DNA from: Micromonospora parathelypteridis
GTDB taxonomy: Bacteria > Actinomycetota > Actinomycetes > Mycobacteriales > Micromonosporaceae
DNA: 64,000 nt
Direction of reading: 5' to 3'
Assembly: GCF_014201145.1 (NCBI RefSeq)
Contig: NZ_JACHDP010000001.1
Coordinates: forward strand, 2,604,001 to 2,668,000
In this document: positions 56,736-59,587 of the stretch, one piece after another
Layout: every line of letters begins with the position of its first letter
How positions within the stretch are numbered: the first letter of the stretch is position 1
Translations under genes and position numbers: made by a program
Notes under the pieces: generated by a model
What the model saw: the letters and a program-made list of their open reading frames with translations, nothing else
Databases searched by the model: none
What the model was told of the DNA's origin: nothing

Positions 56736-56804
56736 GCCCTTCACCTTAGGCTGACTGATAGCCGTGGCACCCACTGGTCGCCCGGCACCCCCGGGAGGAT
56801 GGCG

Positions 56805-57557
56805 ATGAGCAGACTGCAGGGCAGCAAGGATTTCTGGATCGGGGCACTCCGAGCGGAGGGTCCGGCTTTCGCCGCGGCGGTGGCCGAGGCGCCGCCGGAG
56901 ACACCGGTCCTGTCCTGTCCGGGCTGGACGGTCAACGATCTCACGCTGCATCTCGCTCGGATCTACCACTGGGTTTCGTCGTTCGCCGGCAACGGGCAGA
57001 CCACCCGACCGGACCGCCAGGACCCGGCCGACGCGGGCGTGAGCCCGCTAGAGCTGTGGCACCAGGGGTACGACCGGCTGATGACCGTCTTCGACGGGCT
57101 CGACCCGGAGGCACCGGCGTGGAACTGGGCGCCGCAGCCGAAGAAGGCCGGTTTCTGGCCGCGTCGGATGGCGCACGAGACGGCGGTGCACCGCTGGGAC
57201 GCCCAGCTTGCCATCGCGGCCGGCGAGCCGGTGGAGGCGAAGCTCGCGGCCGACGGGGTGAGTGAGGTGCTGGACACCTGGCTCCCCGCGGGCCGTCGGC
57301 GGACGCCGGGCGACTGGCACGGGGTGGTTCAGCTCACCGCGACCGACGCGGCTCAGGAGTGGTATCTGCGGCTGCGTGGCCAGGGGGTGGCGCTGCTCGA
57401 TACCGCGACCATCTTCGACCACGACGACCACCACGCCCGGGCGCAGGTCAGCGGCACCGCGAGCGACCTGCTGTTGGCGCTCTGGGGTCGAGTGAGCTTC
57501 GAGACGCTGGACGTTGCCGGCGATCCCTCCCTGCTGGAAGGTCTGCGTACCCGCTGA
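56805..57557 (+). CDS. TIGR03083-family (maleylpyruvate isomerase-like, mycothiol-dependent type) protein
   Basis: The 250-residue protein starts at ATG 56805, six bases after GGGAGG. It has a DinB-like four-helix N-terminus (VLSCPGWTVNDLTLHLARIYHWV) and the second half HETAVHRWDAQLA. The His residues of these two segments, with the Asp or Glu, form the metal site of mycothiol-dependent maleylpyruvate isomerase-type enzymes. The substrate is unknown; the family includes thiol transferases and detoxifying enzymes that use mycothiol. Confidence 0.88.
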   Translation: MSRLQGSKDFWIGALRAEGPAFAAAVAEAPPETPVLSCPGWTVNDLTLHLARIYHWVSSFAGNGQTTRPDRQDPADAGVSPLELWHQGYDRLMTVFDGLDPEAPAWNWAPQPKKAGFWPRRMAHETAVHRWDAQLAIAAGEPVEAKLAADGVSEVLDTWLPAGRRRTPGDWHGVVQLTATDAAQEWYLRLRGQGVALLDTATIFDHDDHHARAQVSGTASDLLLALWGRVSFETLDVAGDPSLLEGLRTR

Positions 57558-57633: not shown

Positions 57634-57651
57634 CAAGAGAGCGCTCTCTTG
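57634..57651. promoter_or_regulatory. LacI-type operator 1 overlapping a -35 element
   Basis: CAAGAGAGCGCTCTCTTG is a perfect 18-base palindrome of the LacI/CebR type with central GCGC. Its right end overlaps a perfect -35 hexamer, TTGACA (57649-57654), so binding would block polymerase. Confidence 0.8.
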
Positions 57652-57682
57652 ACACAGCGTGGATTCACCCACCACCCTGACG

Positions 57683-57696
57683 GGAGAGCGCTCTCC
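57683..57696. promoter_or_regulatory. LacI-type operator 2
   Basis: GGAGAGCGCTCTCC is a perfect 14-base palindrome with the same GAGAGCGCTCTC core as operator 1, about 48 bases (centre to centre, close to 4.5 helical turns) downstream. It probably lies just after the -10 region. Confidence 0.8.
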
Positions 57697-57788
57697 GGGT
57701 GTCGACGCCCTCGGTGAGCGAGCAGCGCTGCTGACCTTCCAGGTCTTCAGCCGCGGATCTTCGGCGGATTCGTGAAAGGGCGGTCAGC

Positions 57789-58034
57789 GTGAGTGATATC
57801 CGTGTCCCCGAGCAGCTCCCCCCGGGGCCCGTCGCCCACCGGTTCGATGGCGCGGCTCGCGACGACGATTCAAGTCCGTCCAACTGGGACGCCCACGCCA
57901 ACACTGATCACCGCGGCGATCTCCCGGGGCGTGGACCTGGGCACCTATCTCGTATGGTCAATCCTGGACAACGTCGAACAGGCGGAGGGTTACCGCAGGC
58001 GGTTCGGGCGACGAGCGGGGAGAAGGCGCGATGA
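57789..58034 (+). pseudogene. Decayed GH1 beta-glucosidase, only N- and C-terminal pieces left
   Basis: The GTG at 57789 has AAAGGG eight bases upstream and opens VSDIRVPEQLPPG, then GAARDDDSSPSNWDAHANT. This corresponds to the GH1 start pattern LPPGF...IEGAAREDGRTPSIWDTF with residues lost. From about 57908, one frame over, follows ISRGVDLGTYLVWSILDN then VEQAEGYRRRFG, the GH1 C-terminal pattern RGYFVWSLLDNFEWAEGYxxRFG. More than 1 kb of a normal GH1 gene, including both catalytic Glu regions, is missing. The N-terminal frame runs on to a TGA that overlaps the lacI start (ATGA). It is inactive as an enzyme. Confidence 0.8.
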
Positions 58035-59173: not shown

Positions 59174-59587
59174 ATGCCGGAACCTGTCGCGCTGTTGCAC
59201 GTCCCCGCCCTCTCCGACGTCGCCGAGTACGCGTACGCGGCCACCGTCGATCCACCCGCCCGGCTGATTTTCACCGCCGGCGCCTGCCCGCTGGACGCCG
59301 AGGGACGCACCGTTGCGCCGGGTGACCACGCCGCGCAGGCCCGGCAGGTGATGACGAACCTGGAGACGGCCCTCGAGGCGTCCGGCGCCCGGCTCACCGA
59401 CGTGGTCAAGACCACCGTCTACGTGGCGTCCTCCCGGCAGGCAGACCTGGTGACGGCCTGGGAGGTGGTCCGCGACTTCTTCGGCGACCACGACCCGCCC
59501 AGCACCCTGCTCGGGGTGGCCGTGCTCGGCTACACCGACCAACTCGTCGAGGTCGAGGCCGTCGCCGCCGTTCGGACGGGGGCCTGA
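59174..59587 (+). CDS. RidA/YjgF-family protein
   Basis: The 137-residue protein starts at ATG 59174. RidA family parts visible are LIFTAGACPLDAEGRTVAPGDHAAQARQVMTNLETALEASGARLTDVVKTTVYVAS and STLLGVAVLGYTDQLVEVEAVAAV. The usual Arg that binds the carboxylate in RidA deaminases (SRxxV/VR) is replaced around the STLLGVAVL segment, so the imine-deaminase activity is not assured. The GNAT gene follows by 1 base. Confidence 0.85.
   Translation: MPEPVALLHVPALSDVAEYAYAATVDPPARLIFTAGACPLDAEGRTVAPGDHAAQARQVMTNLETALEASGARLTDVVKTTVYVASSRQADLVTAWEVVRDFFGDHDPPSTLLGVAVLGYTDQLVEVEAVAAVRTGA

Follow-up and report, generated by a model that had tools for sequence, protein, structure and literature searches.

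The window analysed here is a stretch of 64,000 nucleotides of the 7.0-Mb genome of Micromonospora parathelypteridis (genome G000; G000:C1:2604001-2668000). It includes an intact lacI gene, an MDMPI gene upstream of it and, between the two, a promoter with two copies of the exact palindrome GAGAGCGCTCTC followed by fragments of a permease gene and of a GH1 gene (Table 1). Of the 158 loci tabulated, 157 have the MDMPI gene 5' of lacI, the exception (G098) being a contig edge.

Table 1. Features of the lacI locus of M. parathelypteridis, in positions of the window.
Feature	Position	Strand	Basis
MDMPI gene (mycothiol maleylpyruvate isomerase-like), left synteny anchor	56799..57557	+	Pfam MDMPI_N, 85.8 bits
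Operator 1, GAGAGCGCTCTC	57637..57648	.	Exact palindrome; position matches intact relatives
-35-like TTGACA, abutting operator 1	57649..57654	+	Sequence; intact-operon relatives
-10-like CACCCT, 18 bp past -35	57673..57678	+	Inferred from position; weak match to a sigma-70 box
Operator 2, GAGAGCGCTCTC, over presumed transcription start	57684..57695	.	Exact palindrome; start inferred
Permease 2 3'-end remnant	57727..57788	+	blastn to orthologous junction in relatives
GH1 5'-end remnant, from old GTG start, 35 codons	57789..57893	+	blastn to orthologous GH1 5' ends; side-by-side with G002
GH1 3'-end remnant, other frame	57912..58008	+	Pfam PF00232; up to 89% identity to intact relatives
81-codon frame built from both remnants, not a conserved gene	57789..58034	+	Absent from two sister species
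lacI, intact, 335 aa	58031..59038	+	Pfam LacI HTH and Peripla_BP_3

The promoter side is that of relatives carrying the full operon. Indeed, among the 122 full-operon genomes that have an exact operator at this place, TTGACA directly follows operator 1 in 118, and a second exact operator is found 45-48 bp further on in 118. As for the -10 region, CACCCTGT starts 17 bp past the -35 in 31 full-operon genomes, and CCACCCTG starts at the spacing of G000 in three. Homology to the intact promoter stops just past operator 2, and no origin was found for positions 57696-57726.

Beyond this point, positions 57727-57893 are about 68-72% identical, in the longer alignments, to the permease-2/GH1 junction of intact relatives, the best-documented alignment being that with G002 (177 columns, E 3e-21 within its 14-kb locus). 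Positions 57912-58008 share 75-89% identity with the GH1 3' end of 18 fetched relatives, G062 and G099 being excluded from this set, and the GH1 tail has lost a further stretch of about 87 bp at 58008/58010. The C-terminal GH1 pattern GVDLGTYLVWSILDNVEQAEGYRRRFG is located in the frame of position 57793, not in the 81-codon frame; its frame matches Pfam GH1 with 30.3 bits (profile positions 390-423; 27.6 bits in a whole-genome search), and the 81-codon frame has no match in Pfam or NCBIfam. With its frame broken, its ends in different frames and the enzyme core and interior absent, the GH1 gene is a pseudogene. A preliminary description of this DNA had recognized a GH1 gene cut to its two ends with a frame change between them, which is borne out by the Pfam match for the C-terminal part and by synteny for the N-terminal part. 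It was also right about the GTG start, which opens the 81-codon frame, about the ATGA overlap of this frame with the ATG of lacI at 58031, and about the two intact 12-bp operators and the intact -35. The RBS, likewise described as intact, is so only in part, the old RBS region within the permease-2 end being altered by substitutions and small gaps.

Intact Relatives and Sister Species

In relatives, the orthologous locus comprises the promoter, a solute-binding protein gene, two permease genes, GH1 and lacI between the same flanking genes, the identities of the operon genes having been checked by Pfam in one intact relative, G024. From the promoter side to the GH1 3' end, the distance is about 4.4-4.8 kb in 16 of the 18 relatives and about 1.4 kb in G073 and G015, versus about 0.2 kb in G000.

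Two sister species, G062 and G099, carry related scars. They share with G000 the internal GH1 junction, a FEW-to-VEQ change and the loss of the GH1 stop codon, and both still possess the 87 bp of GH1 tail missing from G000. The deletions beside operator 2 differ, with homology stopping at 57692 in G062, where operator 2 is cut, at 57694 in G099 and at about 57695-57699 in G000. The segment 57693-57886 is wholly missing in G062, whose GH1 remnant contains a stop codon, and the leader of G099 is different. The 81-codon frame was found in neither sister species; the whole of this short stretch is matched only by G000 itself among 160 genomes (8e-204, the next being G062 with 1e-43, as best E-value per genome).

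Up to lacI, the scar diverges by 8.5-10% among the three species (129-219 columns), which is near their lacI dS (0.12-0.14) and exceeds the total LacI difference of about 4%, so that the scar appears to be drifting. The common GH1 junction and substitutions, followed by different deletions without any shared 81-codon frame, point to a decaying pseudogene whose decay began in a shared ancestor. Thus, of the recent decay event proposed earlier, the decay stands, given the intact orthologous loci, but it is not confined to G000. As three species carry related yet different scars, an assembly error is unlikely. On the other side of lacI, a RidA-like gene (59180-59587) gives only partial matches in L039 (G062), L054 (G070) and L076 (G178), which suggests that it is in decay in relatives as well.

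Losses of the Operon across the Genus

The census covered 160 genomes of Micromonospora as GTDB draws the genus, with 157 of the 159 other loci fetched in addition to the window; G020 and G122, which are without intact LacI, lie outside this fetch. Genes were scored by tblastn and taken as full at more than 80% coverage. The full five-gene operon is present in 123 of the 160 genomes, so an intact GH1 gene and a sugar ABC transporter do precede lacI in relatives, as the preliminary description had thought they might. Both the transporter and a full GH1 are missing in 14 genomes in which LacI is open. A full GH1 with the transporter lost or partial is found in 16 genomes, one of them (G142) with a broken LacI, and the transporter is kept with GH1 lost or truncated in four (G022, G033, G091, G172). 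One locus (G098) is cut by its contig edge, and G020 and G122 make up the rest. A reverse loss, with GH1 gone and the transporter and LacI kept, is seen in L066 (G033) and L068 (G172).

Among the 14 operon-less genomes, a GH1 3' remnant persists in seven (G000, G032, G062, G099, G132, G144, G182), those of G132 and G144 being only 51-55% identical, and none was found in the other seven (G016, G080, G104, G105, G133, G165, G181). When only losses are assumed, the double loss of transporter and GH1 falls into eight clades on each of two trees, one built from lacI and the upstream gene and the other from the upstream gene alone, and the loss of GH1 into 10 or 11, these trees resting on one or two short genes. 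The best 80 of 114 LacI relatives from named genomes are mostly from Micromonospora and Salinispora, and also include one Verrucosispora, one Micromonosporaceae bacterium, Actinoplanes aureus and Plantactinospora alkalitolerans.

Co-occurrence of Operators and LacI

At least one exact GAGAGCGCTCTC site is present in all 157 genomes with an intact LacI, and none in the three genomes without (G020, G122, G142); the reversed control pattern occurs 0 or 1 time per genome. All 14 operon-less genomes have two to nine exact sites, local ones counted. The chance of such a perfect co-occurrence is 1 in 669,920 if the three genomes are taken as independent random draws and kinship is ignored. In G122, LacI lacks residues ~119-212 and its two parts are in different frames, so its first 118 residues could, judging from the reading frame, still be produced. 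In G142, residues ~127-201 are missing and the frame is broken in the HTH, and no LacI was found between the neighbour genes in G020. The broken LacI proteins of L323 (G122) and L075 (G142) lack nearly the same middle part. On the one-gene tree, G020 stands beside G016 and G104 (support 0.978) and G142 beside G141, and G122 belongs to no clade of at most eight genomes. The data thus favour a retention of LacI that tracks a distal regulon rather than its own operon. Within the clade of G140, G141 and G142, exact operators number three, one and zero, and LacI is broken only in G142; the regulon is possibly under loss there.

A Distal Set of Predicted Beta-1,3-Glucanases

The genome of M. parathelypteridis contains eight GAGAGCGCTCTC sites, two of them local, and five GGGAGCGCTCCC sites, versus one for a reversed degenerate pattern. 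All 13 were read in G000, and 18 loci were read in operon-less relatives, in six genomes with 34 sites. The six distal GAGAGCGCTCTC sites of G000 adjoin F5/8C-GH55, GH55, DUF1996, ThuA, GH16 and GH81 genes. The GH16 protein carries a ricin-B domain and ThuA a sugar-dehydrogenase domain, the link to ThuA being weaker because its site lies about 290 bp from the presumed start. GH81 was assigned by its C-terminal Pfam domain, the N-terminal domain remaining below the cut-off. The GH55 target (G000:C1:260667-262112) obtains no family from Pfam or NCBIfam; it matches 4pex/4pew, which are annotated only as putative secreted protein and which we take to be GH55, with 370 bits.

Upstream sites were counted at 38 glucanase loci drawn from searches of 14, 14 and 20 chosen genomes. 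An exact GAGAGCGCTCTC is found near the start of 23 of 28 GH16, GH81 and GH55 genes, a one-mismatch site in three and none in two. The GH55 genes of G140 and G141 have no site though LacI is present, G141 having a single exact site overall. For F5/8C-GH55, an upstream site is found in five of 10 genomes, but the miss in G016 (L340) is not a real test since the flank is cut by a contig end. Among 760 shuffled 1.5-kb flanks, none contains an exact site and five contain a site with at most one mismatch.

Operators near glucanases persist in operon-less genomes, where further sites adjoin GH64, GH16-CBM6 and fucosidase genes, GH64 being another family of predicted beta-1,3-glucanases. Two sites, in G080 and G105, also adjoin other LacI-family genes, so that a different regulator could read some of the sites. 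Queries with GH16, GH81 and GH55 gave no match at E 1e-60 in G020, G122 and G142, the three genomes without intact LacI. Among the 14 operon-less genomes, all of which have LacI, the GH55 query matches 13 (not G181), and the GH16 query matches eight of 10 tested (not G165 and G181). As the GH81 query matches only G000, G062, G099 and G024 among 14 genomes, the lack of a GH81 match in the three LacI-less genomes carries little weight. From signal peptides judged by eye, the glucanases are predicted to be secreted, and the nature of the targets suggests beta-1,3-gluco-oligosaccharides as inducer.

A Paralogous Operon

The GGGAGCGCTCCC sites of G000 adjoin GH12-CBM2, GH9, a GH1, the solute-binding protein gene of a paralogous operon and a gene that, judged by eye, resembles a subtilase. 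This paralogous transporter-GH1-LacI operon is intact behind GGGAGCGCTCCC at G000:C1:4946423-4952301 (L196), and its LacI is 57% identical to that of G024. The HTHs differ at two positions (GVSRATVSR in the LacI of the scar locus, GVGRGTVSR in the paralog), which may set the specificity for GAGAG versus GGGAG. The distribution of GGGAGCGCTCCC does not follow the scar-locus LacI, in a comparison that is only partly clean: it is absent from G010, G013, G063 and G110, which have three to six GAGAG sites, and present four times in G142, whose scar-locus-type LacI is broken. It occurs once each in G020 and G122, no more often than its reversed control does in many genomes (0-4), and the GGGAG regulon may therefore have been lost there as well.

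Why lacI Is Retained

The LacI of G000 possesses both the LacI-type HTH and the sugar-binding domain (Pfam PF00356, PF13377) and is 97.6% identical to its G024 ortholog. All 157 intact LacI frames have 334-341 codons and no internal stop. LacI is under purifying selection in operon-less genomes: dN/dS is 0.07-0.13 among G000, G062 and G099 and 0.09-0.23 for seven further close pairs of operon-less genomes (dS 0.13-0.30), versus medians in full-operon pairs of 0.094 (IQR 0.077-0.135) at dS 0.10-0.20 and 0.214 (0.125-0.268) at dS 0.20-0.35. The G080-G105 pair (0.23 at dS 0.13) exceeds the full-operon range for its dS. Over all 91 operon-less pairs, the median is 0.206 at a median dS of 0.42, and it is 0.213 in full-operon pairs at dS 0.35-0.60.

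In one of its two readings, the preliminary description had the repressor gene autoregulated. At least operator 1 is exact at the locus in G000, G062, G099, G016 and G104, which makes autoregulation of lacI plausible in these genomes from their operators. The other nine of these 14 genomes have no operator between the upstream gene and lacI, even with two mismatches allowed, so local autoregulation is dispensable for the retention of lacI. In these nine, lacI lies 18-590 bp past the upstream gene and, judging from this arrangement, may be transcribed from the promoter of that gene. In L062 (G165), L063 (G181), L060 (G105) and L071 (G182), lacI follows the maleylpyruvate isomerase-like gene by 18-91 bp, and both genes possibly form a new operon.

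The most likely explanation, to which we give a probability of about 85%, is that positions 57696-58008 are the scar of the five-gene operon and that lacI was kept because LacI also represses the distal glucanase regulon; binding of LacI to the sites, repression, autoregulation, enzyme secretion and the substrate are its predicted parts.

Alternatively, lacI could be of no current use and simply the next gene to go, too little time having elapsed since the loss of the operon. Its loss or breakage in G020, G122 and G142 fits this sequence of events, as does the grouping of G020 with the operon-less G016 and G104. However, LacI is open in all 14 operon-less genomes, its dN/dS is similar to the values in full-operon genomes of comparable dS even as the GH1 remnant drifts, and the operators by glucanases persist, which together make such a delay improbable.

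Still less probable is the earlier suggestion that the 81-codon frame is a relic retained as a leader for translational coupling to lacI and for autoregulation. The ATGA overlap and the intact operators of G000 would suit such a role, but the frame is absent from G062 and G099, in which lacI is equally conserved, the former lacking 57693-57886 and the latter carrying another leader. Moreover, G024, whose operon is intact, has a gap of about 22 bp instead of an overlap between GH1 and lacI, nine operon-less genomes have no local operator, and frames of at least 60 codons are common, 70 of them overlapping 12 kb here with real genes counted in. As improbable as the leader is an ancestral short locus that acquired the operon in other species, through insertion or transfer. 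The patchy presence of the operon, with losses counted under a loss-only assumption, would fit such a gain. Against it stand the full operon in 123 of 160 genomes and the remnants resembling GH1 that the trio, G032, G132, G144 and G182 carry at the corresponding place, which indicate earlier presence. For these seven genomes, gain of the operon is unlikely.

Under the preferred reading, in which lacI outlived its operon in the service of the distal regulon, the ancestor shared with G062 and G099 would have lost the GH1 interior and, at some point, the transporter, and each lineage would then have lost further pieces. Where the operon is intact, LacI would repress both this operon and the glucanases as long as no oligosaccharide is taken up. 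In G000, only lacI would be left under the promoter at 57649, and the two operators would provide negative feedback, so that lacI is probably transcribed from its old operon promoter and limits it. The main task of LacI would now be performed at the distal GAGAGCGCTCTC sites of the GH55, F5/8C-GH55, GH16, GH81, DUF1996 and ThuA genes.

Relation to CelR-Type Systems

The best PDB sequence match of the G000 LacI (334 bits) is 5ysz, annotated as a LacI-family regulator and presumably the CelR of T. fusca. The CelR operon of Thermobifida fusca and relatives is described as comprising a putative cellobiose ABC transporter, a beta-glucosidase and celR (PMC3377646). The intact relatives of G000 resemble it in the order of transporter, beta-glucosidase and LacI-family regulator, in the palindromic GAGCGCTC-core operator in front and in the predicted control of glycoside hydrolase genes at other loci by the regulator (PMC3377646). 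An operon with ABC transporter and GH1, as in CelR/CebR systems, is thus present in intact relatives and not in G000, where a separate paralogous operon with GGGAGCGCTCCC is retained. The CelR operator is TGGGAGCGCTCCCA, whereas GAGAGCGCTCTC follows the G000 LacI, and the distal targets in G000 are mainly predicted beta-1,3-glucanases.

Both the type of regulator and the pattern of loss have precedents in PMC3377646 and are therefore of a known kind. GAGAG-type palindromes precede cellobiose-like ABC operons in C. acidiphila, S. roseum and T. bispora, and in C. acidiphila GAGAGCGCTCTC-core palindromes are also located 5' of two GH16 genes, maybe endo-1,3-beta-glucanases (PMC3377646). They are a side result from single genomes, and the section of PMC3377646 devoted to them contains no test of regulator co-loss and no comparable operon loss. 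Ndas_0809, the CelR homologue of Nocardiopsis dassonvillei, which has no cellobiose ABC transporter, is likewise a regulator kept with sites elsewhere in the absence of the transporter operon, but it concerns one genome, a CelR-type site and cellulases, an MFS transporter carrying the site instead (PMC3377646). The exact 12-mer GAGAGCGCTCTC also occurs in PMC3377646 and PMC9657692, and no other account of a GAGAGCGCTCTC/LacI regulon was found in the limited literature searched. New are the recurrence of the loss within a single genus, the test for co-occurrence and the beta-1,3-glucanases among the targets.

Significance

About eight lineages would have dropped the import-and-digest half of the system and kept the glucanases and the repressor. 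In a scenario that we consider tentative and on the doubtful side, the products no longer enter via the ancestral transporter, the inducer comes by another route, and the glucanases are used otherwise, for example to attack fungal walls.

Grown from the observation of a pseudogene, the locus provides a tested example of a regulator that survives the loss of its operon. With the loss repeated within one genus, two reasons for keeping the regulator, local autoregulation and a distal regulon, can be told apart, and the data speak for the latter. A further outcome is a predicted beta-1,3-glucan regulon in Micromonospora, in the GTDB sense of the genus, whose operator is one base per half-site off the CelR-type core.
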